A stretch of DNA of 64,000 bases from an uncultured Clostridia bacterium. Lineage in GTDB: Bacteria > Bacillota > Clostridia > Oscillospirales > Acutalibacteraceae. The translations under genes were made by a program, and so were the position numbers. Within the stretch, counting starts at the first letter, position 1. Each line of letters starts with the position of its first letter. Location: NCBI GenBank assembly GCA_946499275.1, contig CAMMRL010000006.1, positions 1 to 64,000 of the forward strand, in the 5' to 3' direction. The notes under the pieces were generated by a model. It did no database searches and had not been told where the DNA came from. It was given only the letters and a program-made list of their open reading frames with translations. This document shows positions 92-11,800 of this stretch, piece after piece.

Positions 92-1003
92 TTACCATTC
101 GGAAAGCGTGCCGGTCAATTCAGTGATGCTGTCCAGCCCGCTTTTTTCCGCATAGGCCGTCATACCGTCGATGATTTTCACGCATGCCATCGGGTCGCGG
201 AAGCTGGCCGTCCCCACCTGGACGGCGGACGCCCCGGCAATCATCATCTCCACGGCATCCTCCCAGGTGGAGATGCCTCCCATACCGACCACCGGGATTT
301 TCACCCGCTTATACACCTCCCGCACCATGCGGACGGCGACCGGGAACACGGCCGGGCCGGACAACCCGCCGGTATTGTTATGCAGAATCGGCCGGCGGGT
401 GCGGATATCGATCCGCATGCCGGTCAGGGTATTGATAAGGGACAAGGCATCCGCCCCGGCCGCTTCCGCCGCCGCCGCAATGTCGCCGATACTGGTGACG
501 TTTGGGGTCAGCTTTACCATCAGCGGCTTGCCGCAGCGCTTTTTCACTTCGCCCGTCACCTGCGCCACGCTGTCGCAGGAGGTGCCAAAATTCACCCCGC
601 CGTGCTTGACGTTAGGGCAGGAAATGTTCAGCTCGATCATGTCCACGTCGGAATCGTGCAGCCGTTCCGCCATCGCGCAGTAATCCTCCACCGAATTCCC
701 GGCGATATTCGCAATAGCCGCCGTCCCCTGCTGCTTCAGCCAGGGCAGATATACCGACAGGAACATCTCCACCCCTGGGTTCTGAAGGCCGACGCTGTTC
801 AGCATTCCCGAAGGAGTTTCCGCGATGCGGGGCGCATGGTTGCCTTCCCGCTCTTTGAGCGTGGTCCCTTTGCAGGATACGCCGCCCAACCGGGAAACCG
901 GATAAAACTCATTGTATTCCATCCCATAGCCAAAGGTACCGGAAGCGGCGATCACCGGATTTTTCAGCGTTACGCCGCAAAGGGTGACCGACATATCAGG
1001 CAT
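92..1003 (-). CDS. pyrD: dihydroorotate dehydrogenase B, catalytic subunit
   Basis: 303-aa FMN-binding TIM barrel that oxidises dihydroorotate to orotate, the fourth step of UMP synthesis. Visible motifs are NSVGLQNPG (residues 69-77), the active-site stretch ELNISCPN ending at residue 131 with Cys129, VKLTPN (163-168), and the C-terminal phosphate-binding GMGGI segment followed by ASAVQVGTA. The length fits the type 1B family, whose NAD-linked partner PyrK is encoded immediately upstream with an 8-nt overlap. AAGGAGG lies 9 nt before the ATG at 1003, fixing the start. It is the last gene of the pyr operon inside this window. Soluble heterotetramer with PyrK expected. Confidence 0.96.
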   Translation of the reverse strand: MPDMSVTLCGVTLKNPVIAASGTFGYGMEYNEFYPVSRLGGVSCKGTTLKEREGNHAPRIAETPSGMLNSVGLQNPGVEMFLSVYLPWLKQQGTAAIANIAGNSVEDYCAMAERLHDSDVDMIELNISCPNVKHGGVNFGTSCDSVAQVTGEVKKRCGKPLMVKLTPNVTSIGDIAAAAEAAGADALSLINTLTGMRIDIRTRRPILHNNTGGLSGPAVFPVAVRMVREVYKRVKIPVVGMGGISTWEDAVEMMIAGASAVQVGTASFRDPMACVKIIDGMTAYAEKSGLDSITELTGTLSEW

Positions 1004-1772
1004 CCCAATCCACCTCCTTTGAATCGAAGACAGGGCCGTTCAGACATACACGGGTACGGTGCGGTCCGTCCTTATCCTTTGTCTGGCACACACAGCCCAG
1101 GCAGGCGCCTACGCCGCAGCCCATGCGTTCCTCCATGGAAACATAACAGGGAATCCCCACCGTTTCCGCCAGCCTAGCCACGCCCCGCATCATCACCTTC
1201 GGGCCACAGGTGTAAACCACATCGCAGGGATGATCCTGCAGATGCCATTCCAGCGCCTGAGTGGTGAAGCCATGGAAGCCCGCGGATCCGTCGTCGGTAC
1301 AAAGAATAGTTTTCGCTCCGGCGGTCTCAAAATCCGCCTGCAGGATCGCAGCAGAAGCGCTGCGGAAGCCGGTGATCACCGTCGCATTCGCACCGTAAAA
1401 ACGGGCCGGAGGCAAAAGGGGCGGCGTACCGATCCCCCCGCCGACGAATACCGCTTTCTTGTTCGGATCCGTCAACGGGAAACCGTGGCCCAGCGGACCG
1501 ACCAAATCGATCCGTTCCCCGGCTTCCCGCCCAGCCAGCCAATCCGTCCCCTTTCCCCGTATCTCAAACACGAGACGAAGAATGCCCAGCGACGCGTCGA
1601 ACCCGGCGATCGAAATCGGCCGACGGAGCTGATAGCCGTCGCAAAGCACGTTCACAAACTGTCCGGCCGACGCCGCCCCGGCAATCACCGGGGCCGACAG
1701 CACAAAACTGAATATTCCCGGTGCGAGTTCGCTTTTGTTTAGAAGCTTTGCCATTTCCTGCGTATAACGCAT
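996..1772 (-). CDS. pyrK: dihydroorotate dehydrogenase B, electron transfer subunit
   Basis: 258-aa FAD/[2Fe-2S] reductase subunit that passes electrons from PyrD to NAD+. The N-terminal half is a ferredoxin-reductase-like FAD barrel, with RRPISIAGF as the FAD contact. The middle GGGIGTPPLL is the nucleotide-binding loop. The C-terminal cysteine cluster (CGVGACLGCVC, then a last Cys in RVCLNGPVF) is the iron-sulfur site typical of PyrK. The open frame extends to 1811, but GAGAGG sits 7 nt before the ATG at 1772, and homologues begin with a similar peptide. Overlap with pyrD implies translational coupling. The pairing marks an NAD-dependent enzyme rather than a fumarate- or quinone-linked one. 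Confidence 0.95.
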   Translation of the reverse strand: MRYTQEMAKLLNKSELAPGIFSFVLSAPVIAGAASAGQFVNVLCDGYQLRRPISIAGFDASLGILRLVFEIRGKGTDWLAGREAGERIDLVGPLGHGFPLTDPNKKAVFVGGGIGTPPLLPPARFYGANATVITGFRSASAAILQADFETAGAKTILCTDDGSAGFHGFTTQALEWHLQDHPCDVVYTCGPKVMMRGVARLAETVGIPCYVSMEERMGCGVGACLGCVCQTKDKDGPHRTRVCLNGPVFDSKEVDWDA

Positions 1773-1863
1773 AATGGTTCCTCTCTTTCGCGGCAAGATA
1801 ACTTTTTCCAATACAGAGCGGCCCCGCGATGCAGAGCCGCTCTACGCCTAGTATGCCCGTATT

Positions 1864-4800
1864 TTATACCTTAGTAATATCGATTAAGTCCACATCGTTC
1901 ATCGTCTTGTCCAGTGCCAGGCAGCGCACCATCGCGCTCGCCGTGTCCACCGAGGTAAAGACCGGAATCGCGTGTTCAATGGCCAGGCGGCGCATCTGTA
2001 CGCTGGCAAGCTTCGGGTCGCGGCCATGCGCATCGGTAGATAGGATATAATCGATTTTCCCGCTTTCAATCAAATCCACAATGTTCGGATGTTCCTCGTG
2101 CATCTTCCGCACAGCGGAGGCTGGGATCATCTGCTTATTGAGAAGGTTCGCGGTCCCCGCCGTCGCGTAAAGGCTGAATCCCTGCGACAGGAACTTATCC
2201 GCCAAGCTAATCGCTTCCTGCTTGTCGGAATCCCGGACGGTGATCAACACGCCGCCGCTTTTTTTCATCTTGTATCCCGCGGCGATCAGCCCTTTGAACA
2301 GTGCGTCGTCAAAGGTCTTGGCAAGGCCAAGCACTTCACCGGTGGATTTCATCTCCGGCCCAAGCTGGACATCCAGGTCGCGCAGCTTTTCAAAACTGAA
2401 CACCGGCACCTTGACCGCCACATAATCCGCCTCCGGCACAACGCCGACGCCGTATCCCATATCGCGCAGCGGTTCGCCGAACATGCAACGGGTCGCCAAT
2501 TCCACCATCGGCACGTTGGTCACCTTGCTGATATACGGCACCGTACGCGAGGACCGGGGATTCACCTCGATTACATAAACTGTATCCTGATACACGACGT
2601 ACTGGATATTGACCAGGCCGACCACCTTCAGCGCCTTGGCCAGGCGGCCGGTGTAGTCGATGATGGTGTCCTTGACCTTCTGGCTGAGCGTCTGGGAGGG
2701 ATACACCGAGATCGAGTCACCCGAATGGACGCCCGCCCGCTCGATATGCTCCATAATGCCAGGAATGAGGTAATCTTCGCCATCGCAGATGGCTTCGACT
2801 TCCACCTCTTTGCCCATTAGGTATTTGTCGATGAGTACCGGATTTTCCAGCTTGTGGGATGTAATGATGCCCATATATTCCCGTACGTCATTTTCGTCGT
2901 ATGCAATGATCATGTTCTGCCCGCCGAGCACATAGGAGGGGCGCAGCAGCACCGGGTAACCCAGCGCATCCGCCGCTTTTACCGCTTCCTCCGTCTCAAA
3001 GACGGTGGTGCCCTGCGGACGCGGGATGCCGCACTGTTCCAGCAGCTCGTCGAACCGCTCGCGGTCCTCCGCCGCGTCGATGCTGTCCGGCGGCGTCCCC
3101 AGGATCCGTACGCCTTTTTCCACCAGGTGCTTCGTCAGCTTGATGGCGGTCTGGCCACCGAACTGCACCACCACCGCTTCCGGCTGCTCGGTCGCCAGCA
3201 CGTTGTCCACATCCTCGGGCGTCAGCGGGTCGAAATACAGCCGGTCGGCCGTGTCGAAATCGGTGGAAACGGTTTCCGGGTTGTTATTGGCGATGATCGC
3301 CTCGTACCCCAGCTTTTTCAGGGTGCGGACGCAGTGGACGGAGCAATAGTCAAACTCGATGCCCTGGCCAATCCGGATTGGGCCGGAACCGAACACTACC
3401 ACCCGCTTTTTCTTGGAATTCAGCCGCGCGCGGTAAATTTCCGCCTCGTTCTCCTCGTCCCAGGAGGAGTAGAAGTACGGCGTTTCGGCCACGAATTCTG
3501 CCGCGCAGGTATCCACCATCTTATAGGCGGCCGAGCGGGAAACCGGCGGCTTCTGGCCCGAAAGGCGTTCGATCGTCTTATCCAGGAAGCCGAGCTTTTT
3601 CGCCCGCATATAGGTTTCCTCGTCCAGCGGGACGGATTTGAGCTCCTTTTCCATAGCGGCCAGGCGGTTGAGCTTGCTGAGGAACCAGCGGTCGATCTTG
3701 GTCATCTCGAAAATCTCGTCGGCGGTCATAATTCCGCGGGTGATCGCCTCATAAATTGCGAAGATCCGCTCGTCGTCCATTCGGGCGATGATCTCCCTGA
3801 TCTCTTCGTCGCTCTTCTTCGCAAGCTTCGGCAGGCTCGGCGTATCGATCCCCAGTTCAATAGACCGCACCGCCTTCATAAAGGCAATCTCAAAGCCGGC
3901 GCCGATGGACATCACCTCACCGGTCGCCTTCATCTGGGTACCCAGGCGGCGGTCGGCGTAAACGAACTTGTCAAACGGCCATTTTGGGAACTTGATAACG
4001 CAGTAATCCACCGCCGGCTCGTTGCAGGCGTAGGTCTTGCCTGTCACCGCGTTCACAATTTCGTCCAGCCGGTAGCCAATCGCGATTTTGCACGCTACCT
4101 TGGCGATCGGATAGCCGGTCGCCTTGGACGCCAGGGCGGACGAACGGGACACACGGGGATTCACCTCGATCACCGCGTATTCGTTGCTGTCCGGCTTTAG
4201 GGCGAACTGCACGTTGCAGCCTCCCTCCACGCCCAGCGCGGTCACAATATTCAGCGCGGCGGAACGCATCATGCGGAACTCCGAGGCGGTCAGGGTCTGA
4301 GCCGGGGCGACTACGATGGAGTCGCCGGTGTGCACGCCGACCGGGTCGACGTTTTCCATGGAACAGACCTCGATGCAGTTGCCCACGCCGTCGCGGATCA
4401 CCTCGAACTCGATCTCTTTCCAGCCGGCCACGCTTTTTTCAATCAGCACCTGATGGATCAGAGAAGCGCGCAGACCGCCGGCGCAGATTTCGTTCATCTC
4501 TTCGTCGTTGTGGACAAAGCCGCCGCCGGTGCCGCCCAGGGTATAGGCAGGACGAACCACCACCGGATACCCGATGGTATGGGCGAATTCCAGCGCGTCC
4601 TCAACCGATTCCACCACTTTGGAGGGGATACAGGGTTCCCCAATAGAAAGCATGGTGTCCTTGAACGCCTGGCGATCCTCCGCTTTCCGGATGGTTTCAG
4701 GATTGACGCCCAACAGTTTCACGCCGCGGCTGGTCAGAAAATCGCCTTCGGACAATTCCATCCCGATATTCAGGCCGGTCTGGCCGCCCATGTTTGCCAG

Positions 4801-5058
4801 CACGCTATCCGGCTTCTCGATATCAATAATCCGTTTCACTGTATCCAGGGTCAGAGGTTCGATATAAATCTTGTCCGCCATGGTTTTATCGGTCATGATG
4901 GTCGCCGGGTTGGAGTTGACCAGCACCACCTCCAGCCCTTCCTCACGCAGAGCGCGGCAGGCCTGGGTTCCGGCATAGTCGAATTCCGCCGCCTGGCCGA
5001 TCACGATCGGCCCGGAGCCGATTACTAGAACCTTTTTCACATCGTCGCGTTTTGGCAT
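1864..5058 (-). CDS. carB: carbamoyl-phosphate synthase large subunit
   Basis: 1064-aa synthetase with the usual duplicated ATP-grasp halves. Each half opens with a GSGP(I)xIGQ(A/G)xEFDY motif (near residues 12-26 and again near 560), and each carries the ATP-grasp proline-rich loops and ENPRVSRSSALASKATGYP or NPRSSRTVPYISK blocks. A C-terminal MGS-type allosteric domain follows. It makes carbamoyl phosphate from bicarbonate, 2 ATP and ammonia. Nothing in the synthetase motifs looks damaged, which matters because its partner CarA has lost its glutaminase residues. The ATG at 5058 is preferred over 5064 because AAAGGG is 9 nt upstream of it. The gene starts 90 nt after carA. Confidence 0.96.
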   Translation of the reverse strand: MPKRDDVKKVLVIGSGPIVIGQAAEFDYAGTQACRALREEGLEVVLVNSNPATIMTDKTMADKIYIEPLTLDTVKRIIDIEKPDSVLANMGGQTGLNIGMELSEGDFLTSRGVKLLGVNPETIRKAEDRQAFKDTMLSIGEPCIPSKVVESVEDALEFAHTIGYPVVVRPAYTLGGTGGGFVHNDEEMNEICAGGLRASLIHQVLIEKSVAGWKEIEFEVIRDGVGNCIEVCSMENVDPVGVHTGDSIVVAPAQTLTASEFRMMRSAALNIVTALGVEGGCNVQFALKPDSNEYAVIEVNPRVSRSSALASKATGYPIAKVACKIAIGYRLDEIVNAVTGKTYACNEPAVDYCVIKFPKWPFDKFVYADRRLGTQMKATGEVMSIGAGFEIAFMKAVRSIELGIDTPSLPKLAKKSDEEIREIIARMDDERIFAIYEAITRGIMTADEIFEMTKIDRWFLSKLNRLAAMEKELKSVPLDEETYMRAKKLGFLDKTIERLSGQKPPVSRSAAYKMVDTCAAEFVAETPYFYSSWDEENEAEIYRARLNSKKKRVVVFGSGPIRIGQGIEFDYCSVHCVRTLKKLGYEAIIANNNPETVSTDFDTADRLYFDPLTPEDVDNVLATEQPEAVVVQFGGQTAIKLTKHLVEKGVRILGTPPDSIDAAEDRERFDELLEQCGIPRPQGTTVFETEEAVKAADALGYPVLLRPSYVLGGQNMIIAYDENDVREYMGIITSHKLENPVLIDKYLMGKEVEVEAICDGEDYLIPGIMEHIERAGVHSGDSISVYPSQTLSQKVKDTIIDYTGRLAKALKVVGLVNIQYVVYQDTVYVIEVNPRSSRTVPYISKVTNVPMVELATRCMFGEPLRDMGYGVGVVPEADYVAVKVPVFSFEKLRDLDVQLGPEMKSTGEVLGLAKTFDDALFKGLIAAGYKMKKSGGVLITVRDSDKQEAISLADKFLSQGFSLYATAGTANLLNKQMIPASAVRKMHEEHPNIVDLIESGKIDYILSTDAHGRDPKLASVQMRRLAIEHAIPVFTSVDTASAMVRCLALDKTMNDVDLIDITKV

Positions 5059-5148
5059 CGTCATCTACCCTTTCTATCCTGAGGAAGTCTCCGGGGCAAG
5101 CCCCACGGGGAGGAAATCCCTTACGAAATCTTTGGACTGCCGAGGAGC

Positions 5149-6237
5149 CTAGTTCTTGCTTTGGGCCAGCATACCGGCAAATTCTTCGAAAATGCAGGCC
5201 GTATCCTGATAACCGCGGCCGTTCGACGGCTCAAACTGCACGGTCATTGCCGGTGCCGCCTTATAGCGGATACCTTCCACCGTGCCGTCGTTGACGTTGC
5301 GCAAAAACGCATCCGCCCGTTCGGGATCGATACTTTCCAGCGCCACGGCATAGCCGTGATTCTGCTCGGTCGTCATCACCCGCCGGGTTTCCTCGTTGCG
5401 CACCGGCTGGTTGCTGCCGCGATGGCCGACCGGCAGCTTTTCAATCCGGAATCCGTTGGCCACCGCCATAAGCTGGTGCCCCAGGCCCCAGCCGAAAAGC
5501 GGCTTCCCACTCTTCATCAGTTCGCGGATGATCTCGATGATCTCCGGATTGTCCCATGGATCGCCCGGGCCGTCGGACAGGACGATACCGTCCGGATCAG
5601 CGGCCAGGATCGCCGGCGCCGAGGTATAGGCCGGATAGACGACACAGGTGCATCCCATTTCCATAAAATGCGGAAGGATGGAGCGACGGAAACCGTAATC
5701 CGGAATTGCCAGGGTGTATTTCGTGTTTTCTGCTTCGTAGCGCTGCGGTTCGTTCACCGTGATCTGCCCCACTGCCGGCGGGACGCGGTAACCTTCCAGG
5801 CGGGCGAACAACTCATCCCGGTTGTCCAGGGATTCCGCGATGACGCCGTTCATCACGCCGTGGTCGCGGATATGCCTGGTGAGCGCGCGGGTATCGATCC
5901 CGCACAGGCCGACAATCCCACGCTGCTTCAAATACTCATCCAGCGTGACAAATTCATGGGCGTCGGTGGGTTCCACACACCACTCCCGCACGATATACCC
6001 GCTGGCCATCAGCTTGGAAGGCGCTTCAGGATCCACGCCGCGGTTGCCGATGAGCGGATAGGTCTGCACCACGATCTGGCCGGAATAGGTAGGGTCCTGC
6101 AGAAGGTCCTGATACGTAGTCATATCGGTGTTGAACACCACTTCCCCTACCGCCGAGCCTTCTGCCCCCATGGCATATCCCTTGTAGGTGGTGCCGTCCT
6201 CCAGCAGGAGGTAAGCGGTTTTCATCTTTTTGTCCAT
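5149..6237 (-). CDS. carA: carbamoyl-phosphate synthase small subunit with a degenerate glutaminase triad
   Basis: 362-aa homologue of CarA: N-terminal CPSase small-chain domain (TYQDLLQDPTYSGQIV near residues 41-56) and C-terminal class I glutamine amidotransferase domain. Family enzymes have FGxCLGHQ with the nucleophile Cys (E. coli C269). Here the stretch is FGWGLGHQ and the codon at 5485-5487 is GGC, Gly. The family HPE motif (H353, E355) reads EPS here: GAG at 5230-5232 and TCG at 5224-5226. Glutamine-site elements GPGDP, LGHQ and QNHGYAV remain. So the fold is kept but the catalytic triad is gone. The expected role is structural/allosteric support for ammonia-dependent CarB, as in ammonia-type CPSases. 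GGGGAG lies 9 nt before the ATG at 6237; the frame is open to 6312. Assignment is sure; loss of glutaminase activity is inferred. Confidence 0.93.
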   Translation of the reverse strand: MDKKMKTAYLLLEDGTTYKGYAMGAEGSAVGEVVFNTDMTTYQDLLQDPTYSGQIVVQTYPLIGNRGVDPEAPSKLMASGYIVREWCVEPTDAHEFVTLDEYLKQRGIVGLCGIDTRALTRHIRDHGVMNGVIAESLDNRDELFARLEGYRVPPAVGQITVNEPQRYEAENTKYTLAIPDYGFRRSILPHFMEMGCTCVVYPAYTSAPAILAADPDGIVLSDGPGDPWDNPEIIEIIRELMKSGKPLFGWGLGHQLMAVANGFRIEKLPVGHRGSNQPVRNEETRRVMTTEQNHGYAVALESIDPERADAFLRNVNDGTVEGIRYKAAPAMTVQFEPSNGRGYQDTACIFEEFAGMLAQSKN

Positions 6238-6321: not shown

Positions 6322-7236
6322 CTACAGCGCACCCAGGATATCGTCCCGCATCCGCAGGGCTTCCCGCCGGGCCGCGCCAGCGTAATCCTCCGGCGCACAG
6401 CCTTCCTTTTTCCAGGCGCAGAGGATGCCGCGGGAGGAATTGATCACCGCGCCCAGGCCATCCTTGTCAAACGCGCCCGCCACATCCGCCGCGCCGCCTC
6501 CCTGGGCCCCGTAGCCGGGCACCAGGAAGAAGGTATGTGGCAGCGCCGCCCGCAGTTCACTGAGTTGGGCAGGCCAGGTGGCTCCCACCACCGCGCCGAC
6601 CCCGGAATAGCCGTATTTTCCCGGAAGCTGTTCGCCCCACTGCTCGCACAGTTTTCCCATCCGGCGGTACACCGGCTCGCCGTCAATTGGTTTGTCCTGC
6701 AGTTCCCCGGACGAAGGGTTCGACGTTTTCACCAGCACGAAAATCCCGGTGTCAAAACGGCGGCACACATCCACCAGCGGCAGGATGCCATCCGCGCCGA
6801 GATATCCGTTGACCGTCAGCGCATCCCCGCCGAAGGCCGGGATCTCCGCATTCCCCACGCGGGTGACGCCCAAATGGCCGGCCGCATACGCCTCTATGGT
6901 GGAACCGATGTCGTTGCGCTTGCCGTCAGTGATGACGAACATCCCCTTCTTCTTTGCATAGGCGATGGTTTCGCATAGGGTGCGTACCCCCGGCCAGCCG
7001 TACATTTCGTAATACGCTGCCTGGGGCTTGACCGCCGGTACGATATCGCACAGCGCGTCAATCAAACCCTTATTATAGGTGAGAATCGCCGCCGCCGCGC
7101 CTTCCAGCGTTTCTCCGTATTCGGCAAACGCGGCGCGGACGATCGGTTCCGGGATATAGTCCAGCTTTGGGTCCAGCCCCGCCACAGTTGGGTTTTTTGT
7201 CCTCTTAATTCCCTCAATCAGTCTGTCCAGTGCCAT
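6322..7236 (-). CDS. pyrF: orotidine 5'-phosphate decarboxylase (long form)
   Basis: 304-aa decarboxylase converting OMP to UMP, the last step of de novo pyrimidine synthesis. It shows the long (type 2) family features: TVAGLDPKLDYIP near the N terminus, the catalytic DGKRNDIGST (around residues 103-112) with the Lys and Asp residues of the active site, and the phosphate loop VPGYGAQGGG near the C terminus. GGGAGG is 6 nt before the ATG at 7236. The start lies inside the end of rmuC (23-nt overlap), so translation of the two is probably coupled. It is followed by carA after 84 nt. Confidence 0.95.
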   Translation of the reverse strand: MALDRLIEGIKRTKNPTVAGLDPKLDYIPEPIVRAAFAEYGETLEGAAAAILTYNKGLIDALCDIVPAVKPQAAYYEMYGWPGVRTLCETIAYAKKKGMFVITDGKRNDIGSTIEAYAAGHLGVTRVGNAEIPAFGGDALTVNGYLGADGILPLVDVCRRFDTGIFVLVKTSNPSSGELQDKPIDGEPVYRRMGKLCEQWGEQLPGKYGYSGVGAVVGATWPAQLSELRAALPHTFFLVPGYGAQGGGAADVAGAFDKDGLGAVINSSRGILCAWKKEGCAPEDYAGAARREALRMRDDILGAL

Positions 7237-8553: not shown

Positions 8554-9846
8554 TTATTCCGCCCGGTAAACCAAACGGCCTTCCAGCAGCGTGTACCGCA
8601 CCCGGCCGCGCAGAGTCATCCCCTTGAACGGCGTATTGCGGGATTTCCCGTGAAGCTTCGCCGGGTCGACGTTCCATTCCTCGTCTGGATCGAATAAAAC
8701 AATGTCCGCCGGCGCACCGGGCACCAGCGTCCCCGCAGGGATTCCCAGCAGACGGGCAGGCTCGGTAGACATCAGCCACAACAGGCGGGGCAAGTCGAGC
8801 CGCCCGGTAGCTACCAGCGCGGTGATCCCCGCCGCCAACGAAGTCTCCATCCCAATTGACCCGTTCGGCGCACGCAGAAAATCCGCCTTATCCTCTGGGG
8901 AATGGGGTGCGTGGTCGGTTGCAATGGCGCTGAGCGTGCCGTCGCAGAGCCCTTCAATCACCGCTTCCCGGTCGTCCTGTGTACGCAGCGGCGGGTTCAT
9001 GCGGTAATCCGCATCCCGGCCGCGAAGCGTCTCCTCGGTCAGCAGGAAGTAGTGCGGGGCCGTCTCCCCCGTCACCGGGGCGCCCCGCCGCCGCGCATCC
9101 CGCAAAAGCGCGACGCTTCCTCGGGTGCTCACATGGCAGATATGCACCGGCAAACCGGTCGCCGCGGCGATGGCAATCTCCCGCGCGGTGGCCACGTCCT
9201 CCGCCCCACGGTGGATGCCGGGGACCTGGAGCGCATGGGAAACCTCCCCTTCGTTCATAATCCCGCCGCGGGTTAGGGAAAAGTCCTCGCAGTGGGACAG
9301 CACCGGCATGGACAGCGCTGCGGCTGCTTTCATAGCATCCATCATCTGCCCGGCGGTCGGCACCGGCCGGCCGTCGTCCGACACCGCGATCGCCCCCGCT
9401 GCTTTGAGGGCGGCAAAGTCATTCAGCTTTTCCCCGCCCAATGACGCAGTAACGGCGGCCACCGGATATACATGAGCTTTGGCGGAAGCCGCCCTTTTCA
9501 CGATATCTCCGATAACCGCCGGATTGTCCAGCACCGGCGATGTATTGGGCATACACGCCAATGAGGTAACGCCGCCTGCCGCCGCAGCGGAACAGCCGGT
9601 CTCTATATCTTCTTTATATGTCTGTCCCGGATCGCGGAGATGGACGTGCATGTCCACCAGGCCGGGAGCACAAACCAGTCCACTGCCGTCCAGCACGTCG
9701 GCGTCGGAAAAATCGGTTTCCGGCGTGAGGGCGGCGATCCGTCCCCCGGAGACAAATACATCTTGACAGGCGTCAATATTCCGGGAAGGATCAATGACCC
9801 GCGCACCGCGTATCCACAGCTTTTTCCCCGCTTGATTTTTTTCCAT
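8554..9846 (-). CDS. pyrC: dihydroorotase
   Basis: 430-aa zinc amidohydrolase that closes carbamoyl aspartate to dihydroorotate. The metal-binding DMHVHLRDPG motif, ACMPNTSPV, the HCED and HICHVSTRGS histidines and the TDHAPHSPEDK loop with the catalytic Asp are all present, so it is the catalytic type I form rather than a PyrX-like dead paralogue. Start: AGGGAGG lies 8 nt before the ATG at 9846; upstream in-frame codons at 9867 and 9855 are badly placed for that site. It is the first gene of the pyr operon, about 110 nt downstream of the predicted transcription start. Confidence 0.95.
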   Translation of the reverse strand: MEKNQAGKKLWIRGARVIDPSRNIDACQDVFVSGGRIAALTPETDFSDADVLDGSGLVCAPGLVDMHVHLRDPGQTYKEDIETGCSAAAAGGVTSLACMPNTSPVLDNPAVIGDIVKRAASAKAHVYPVAAVTASLGGEKLNDFAALKAAGAIAVSDDGRPVPTAGQMMDAMKAAAALSMPVLSHCEDFSLTRGGIMNEGEVSHALQVPGIHRGAEDVATAREIAIAAATGLPVHICHVSTRGSVALLRDARRRGAPVTGETAPHYFLLTEETLRGRDADYRMNPPLRTQDDREAVIEGLCDGTLSAIATDHAPHSPEDKADFLRAPNGSIGMETSLAAGITALVATGRLDLPRLLWLMSTEPARLLGIPAGTLVPGAPADIVLFDPDEEWNVDPAKLHGKSRNTPFKGMTLRGRVRYTLLEGRLVYRAE

Positions 9847-9965
9847 ACCGCGCATCCTCCCTACCATTTTTCATGTTCATTTATCCGCCCGCAAAGCCCG
9901 AAATCTATTCCAGTATACTAGTAGGCAAGCAAAACCGCCTATTTCAAACCCCTGATCAACTATGT

Positions 9966-10414: not shown

Positions 10415-11800
<1,386 letters not shown>

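Follow-up and report, generated by a model that had tools for sequence, protein, structure and literature searches.

A pyrimidine-operon carbamoyl-phosphate synthase without its glutaminase triad in Clostridia

Introduction

In Escherichia coli carbamoyl-phosphate synthase (CPS), the hydrolysis of glutamine requires residues C269 and H353 (PMC6245113). Variants of the E. coli enzyme in which the glutamine tunnel is blocked or perforated are still active on external ammonia (PMC4655335). The E. coli enzyme works on ammonia only at very high levels, and this use was judged likely to be physiologically irrelevant there (PMC6245113). Human CPS1, in which the catalytic Cys is replaced by Ser294, takes free ammonia, and the 2015 structural paper that describes it states that glutamine is used by all CPS types except CPS1 (PMC4655335). 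According to a 2018 review, bacterial CPS is of type CPS II and uses glutamine (PMC6022934). In another amidotransferase family, NAD synthetase (NadE), bacteria have both glutamine- and ammonia-using forms; a table of 600 genomes in the same work holds no CPS without a glutaminase component, with gene presence being scored and not catalytic residues (PMC3376133). In the open-access literature, with subscription papers mostly outside the scope of the search, we found no native bacterial CPS without glutaminase residues, no CPS pseudoenzyme and no C269G. In the Bacillus subtilis PyrAA/PyrAB type, a pyrimidine-specific CPS isoenzyme stands beside a second CPS.

The locus described here lies in a 64,000-nt stretch of DNA (the window). 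It comes from a genome of 2.5 Mb in 90 contigs that is 94% complete and that, among named taxa, is closest to Candidatus Avimonas species (Clostridia).

Results and Discussion

The window carries a pyrimidine (pyr) operon with both CPS genes. Its features are as follows.

92..1003, minus strand: pyrD, dihydroorotate dehydrogenase, same operon (name from sequence)
996..1811, minus strand: pyrK-type, dihydroorotate dehydrogenase electron-transfer subunit, same operon (translation and conserved order; name from sequence)
1864..5064, minus strand: carB, CPS large subunit, checked catalytic, ammonia-gate and carbamate-tunnel residues kept (family and residue checks)
5149..6237, minus strand: carA, CPS small subunit, triad G-E-S replacing C-H-E (reading, family and PDB alignments)
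5224..5226, minus strand: Ser codon TCG, aligned to E. coli E355 (read, with alignment)
5230..5232, minus strand: Glu codon GAG, aligned to E. coli H353 (read, with alignment)
5485..5487, minus strand: Gly codon GGC, aligned to the E. coli nucleophile C269 (read, with alignment)
6322..7236, minus strand: pyrF, orotidine 5'-phosphate decarboxylase, directly upstream of carA (name from sequence)
8554..9867, minus strand: pyrC, dihydroorotase, upstream in the same orientation with an rmuC-like gene between (name from sequence)

An Rfam RNA search of the 64,000-nt window gave no match. A glutamate dehydrogenase gene (10469-11800, plus strand) flanks the pyr cluster in divergent orientation, as it does in the closest relatives. 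A connection of this neighbor with the supply of ammonia is purely speculative.

CarA of the window has 362 residues, starts with ATG at 6237 on the minus strand and has an open frame. E. coli residue numbers were assigned by alignment to PDB chains and to E. coli K-12 carA. The preliminary description had claimed the loss of all three triad residues; re-reading of the codons and alignment to E. coli confirmed Gly, Glu and Ser at C269, H353 and E355, with the coordinates exact. Its claim that other elements of the glutamine site persist was borne out as well, as the oxyanion and glutamine-pocket residues G241, G243, L270, Q273, N311, H312 and G313 are all kept. The protein has both domains of the CarA family (TIGR01368 / NF009475), CPSase_sm_chain and class-I GATase, with Gly-Glu-Ser in place of the Cys-His-Glu catalytic triad. 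It scores 346 bits against a cut-off of 307 for the 'glutamine-hydrolyzing' NCBIfam model, so the loss of the triad would escape automatic annotation. The predicted structure matches E. coli CarA best and human CPS1 next; this moderate model (pLDDT 79, pTM 0.71, nine sequences) supports a CarA fold and is too weak for the pocket or tunnel. From the biochemistry of C269 and H353 in E. coli, we infer that the glutaminase activity of window CarA would be lost.

The G-E-S triad is invariant in the relatives of the window lineage, which are 69–89% identical and in which carA always lies between pyrF and carB. The closest relatives share the gene order pyrC-pyrF-carA-carB-pyrK-pyrD; at two loci (L012/L046 and L013) carB was seen with neither pyrK nor pyrD next to it. 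Pairwise dN/dS for CarA is 0.04–0.18, approximately 0.09 among the nearest relatives, with similar values for the GAT domain. The open frame, the strong purifying selection and the same triad in relatives agree with the earlier view that this gene is not in random decay. Two further class-I amidotransferases were detected in the genome, a CTP synthase-like and a HisH-like protein; both keep the Cys and HPE, which rules out a general decay of amidotransferases in this genome.

The partner CarB retains R129, R169, E215, E299, N301, R303, R675, R715, E761, E841, N843 and R845, as well as the ammonia-gate residues C232/A251/A314. Its pairwise dN/dS is 0.02–0.09, and the ATP-grasp domains are 83–87% conserved within the window lineage.

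The genome has two CarB genes. A second CarA, with FGICLGHQ and QFHPE and thus an intact triad, is found on contig C21, where the next gene encodes an in-frame fusion of CarB to DapF and the one after it is dapL-like. The window CarB and the CarB of this locus are 68% identical. The preliminary description had held that an intact second carA used for pyrimidines would count against it. Such a gene is present, on another contig, and may or may not feed pyrimidine synthesis. With an intact CarAB elsewhere in the genome, dependence of the cell on the pyr-operon copy does not follow. A genome assigned to the same genus (G104, 98% complete) has a single intact CarA near dapF (L063) and no pyr-operon copy; not even all members of the genus, therefore, have the pyr-type pair.

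The window pair shares features with several known systems. As in E. coli CarAB, a bacterial CPS II, the subunits are homologous and the domain order and the CarB active sites are the same; unlike E. coli CarAB, it has no glutaminase triad. Like the B. subtilis PyrAA/PyrAB type, it is a CPS among pyr genes with a second CPS elsewhere in the genome; unlike that type, the pyr copy is predicted to be glutaminase-dead and the CarB of the other copy is fused to DapF. In vertebrate mitochondrial CPS I (CPS1), the small-subunit-like domain is likewise kept without its Cys, and the synthetase and allosteric domains are intact. CPS1 consists of one fused chain, depends on N-acetylglutamate and functions in ureagenesis, whereas the window enzyme is bacterial, is encoded by separate carA and carB genes in a pyr operon, has lost all three triad residues and has Gly instead of Ser. 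Human CPS1 is nevertheless the nearest functional parallel; in both enzymes the catalytic Cys is replaced and the synthetase residues are intact. Unlike the single-domain ammonia-using NadE, from which the glutaminase is absent, the window CPS keeps its glutaminase as an apparently dead subunit.

With the triad gone, the frame intact and under purifying selection, and CarB intact, ammonia-dependent synthesis is the natural reading. We estimate a probability of about 0.6 that the window pair works as a CPS isoenzyme that depends on ammonia and is linked to pyrimidine synthesis. The small subunit of the pyr-operon CPS would no longer hydrolyze glutamine, and CarA would be kept as a structural, possibly ammonia-entry, subunit on an active CarB. 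CarB would make carbamoyl phosphate from free ammonia, bicarbonate and two ATP. The separate, intact glutamine-type CarAB, with its CarB fused to DapF, would be retained, and labor would be divided between both enzymes. We infer both the use of ammonia as the donor in vivo and this division of labor between the two CPS. Ammonia is plentiful in the gut. The very high ammonia demand of the E. coli CPS speaks against this reading, as does the intact CarAB in the same genome.

To see how common such enzymes are, an even sample of 150 family genomes was searched; a CarA was present in 109 of them, and 102 had a full-length copy after fetching. Only intact copies were found in 78 of the 102 genomes and a triad-altered copy in 24. 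An intact and an altered copy occur together in 11/102, no copy has the Cys in 10/102 (nine of these genomes are at least 90% complete), and in 3/102 the Cys is kept without a full triad in any copy; calls are uncertain where a gap stands at a triad position, as for the fragmentary L151. In the family tree set, Cys is found at the C269 position in 98 of 120 rows (E. coli included). The DNA pattern for FGxG[L/F]GHQ was matched in 29 of 396 order genomes and 14 of 388 class genomes (window included); the reversed pattern, as a control, matched two order genomes and one class genome, and a few FGxG[L/F]GHQ hits were not CarA. Copy number was determined for 22 of the order-level genomes with the pattern, and 16 of these have a single CarA, which is Cys-less. 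The expectation that a bacterial pyr CPS of this kind would be unusual thus did not hold, as Cys-less CarA recurs across the order and the class in this pattern search.

Some copies are less regular. Two genomes have two CarA or CarA-like genes, neither with a full triad: G264 (L165/L198 and L213) with triads G-D-T and A-C-E, and G301 (L187/L194 and L216) with G-Y-G and a divergent gene. The extra copies L216 and L217 are highly divergent CarA-like proteins of approximately 340 residues with no recognizable nucleophile motif. An apparently split CarA in G111 (L064) is merely a run of N in the assembly.

Losses of the Cys were counted on a CarA tree of 165 rows, built after removal of the triad columns. 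The presence of Cys changes at least 17 times. When branches below an SH-aLRT of 80 were collapsed, the minimum was 15 changes (19 losses when no regain of Cys is allowed); collapse at 95 left a floor of only five changes. The tree thus points to multiple losses, the exact number of which is uncertain. Where the Cys is missing in the family sample, 19 rows have Gly and three have Ser; the order and class sets were chosen for Gly through the pattern and are uninformative on this preference. Grouped by eye, there are approximately 14 events, of which 11 are to Gly, with a probability of 1e-7 if the single-base routes are equally likely. Gly suits the nucleophile elbow of class-I enzymes, where the backbone is strained. 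Its presence there argues that the CarA fold is being kept. Judging from these comparisons, the loss of the glutaminase triad is old, under selection and recurrent in many related bacteria.

Sixteen genomes were tested for other routes to carbamoyl phosphate and for the arginine pathway, including nine from the family in which every CarA is Cys-less and six order-level genomes with an altered CarA. Two transcarbamylase-family genes and ArgG (argininosuccinate synthase) are present in all 16, so loss of the arginine pathway was rejected as an explanation for the absence of an intact CarA. No carbamate kinase scored over the cut-off in any of the 16, and this enzyme was likewise rejected as another source of carbamoyl phosphate. 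The CarB residues are intact where read in these genomes, except in the pyr-operon CarB of G006. Given an active-looking CarB, two transcarbamylases, ArgG and no carbamate kinase match, the Cys-less CPS apparently suffices there, and it apparently supplies both pathways in the genomes that have no intact CarA. The genomes with only Cys-less copies give the strongest indirect support for the use of ammonia, with the provisos that single cases are not proof and that metagenome assemblies may miss genes.

A sister lineage of 10 genomes in seven genera, three of the genomes (G1009, G434, G452) being added by similarity, has a CarA-CarB pair in the same pyr-operon slot. The window and sister CarA fall in one 16-row clade with 99% support. 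The sister CarA has Gly at the Cys site and Thr or Ile at the His site (G009, G142, G006, G144, G002, G137, G102 and the three genomes added by similarity). In CarB, N301 is lost in all 10 genomes, and R715, E761, N843 and R845 are lost in all nine that could be read through site 2 (G1009 ends earlier). This loss of ATP-grasp catalytic residues, which would mark a pseudo-CPS, is seen only in the sister lineage and not in the window CarB. The sister CarB keeps K954, T974 and T977 of the MGS domain and E783 and D791 of the ornithine site; K993 is in a gap in L296, and T1042 is Pro in L295. MGS, which is among the least conserved domains of ordinary CarB, is the most conserved domain in the first seven sister sequences (66% identity vs 46% in ordinary CarB). 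Of the columns that are invariant in active CarB, the sister CarB keeps 95% in MGS (only six columns), 85% in the oligomerization domain, and 73% and 59% in the two ATP-grasp halves. Its dN/dS is 0.05–0.06. A second CarAB with an intact triad is nearly always present beside the sister pair, the exceptions being G006 (G-Y-D) and G144 (C-Y-E). The loci with an ATP-site-damaged pyr-operon CarB are L048, L050, L052, L054, L056, L058, L060 and L294-L296.

Judged on these residues, the sister pair is probably a pseudo-carbamoyl-phosphate synthase that acts only as a regulator. Without the ATP-site residues, catalysis is not what keeps this pair, and the window pair could share such a non-catalytic role: its CarB would sense UMP, PRPP or ornithine through MGS and tune the intact CarAB, for example in mixed oligomers, with synthesis by the window pair being secondary. 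The same slot, the two damaged ATP sites next to a well-kept MGS and ornithine site, and the second CarAB that nearly always accompanies the sister pair speak for this role. However, the window CarB keeps all checked catalytic residues in ATP-grasp domains that are 83–87% conserved, which a purely regulatory protein would not need, and we consider regulation unlikely as the main function of the window pair. A stepwise conversion can be sketched, tentatively and with the odds somewhat against it, from a duplicated pyr CPS through a glutaminase-dead ammonia enzyme (window) to a non-catalytic CarA-CarB, kept for an allosteric domain that would sense pyrimidine or ornithine status and tune the intact CPS (sister lineage).

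It is also conceivable that the pyr CarB borrows a glutaminase, being fed by the CarA of C21 or with ammonia from another glutaminase, and that the local CarA is a placeholder. An intact CarA is at hand in the genome, and the similarity of the two CarB proteins makes cross-pairing conceivable. The dead CarA, however, always adjoins its own CarB and is under purifying selection, and the nine genomes of at least 90% completeness in which every CarA is Cys-less have no intact CarA to borrow; we regard this arrangement as quite improbable. An intact second copy could relax constraint, but a decaying duplicate or an assembly or sequencing error is hardly credible here, as independently assembled relatives and other species have the same triad (which excludes sequencing error), the frames are open, dN/dS is approximately 0.09, CarB is intact and the operon conserved, and a pseudogene was ruled out on the same grounds.

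If ammonia-dependent synthesis by the Cys-less CPS is confirmed, an ammonia-type CPS would have evolved several times within Clostridia and would be the sole CPS of some species. The change would parallel, in nature, the well-known C269 mutants of E. coli. The switch from glutamine to ammonia would be testable across close relatives and would bear on the flow of nitrogen in ammonia-rich guts. The sister lineage would provide naturally occurring CPS pseudoenzymes that uncouple allostery from catalysis. Automatic annotation labels all of these proteins 'glutamine-hydrolyzing' or plain CPS.

The CarB-DapF fusion on C21 (L005, 11843-15929, plus strand) is one open frame of approximately 1350 residues with the linker ...TELVDINNMR.... 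Fusion of the intact type of CarB to DapF (diaminopimelate epimerase) was seen at 30 loci, C21 included, vs six at which the two genes are adjacent but separate.
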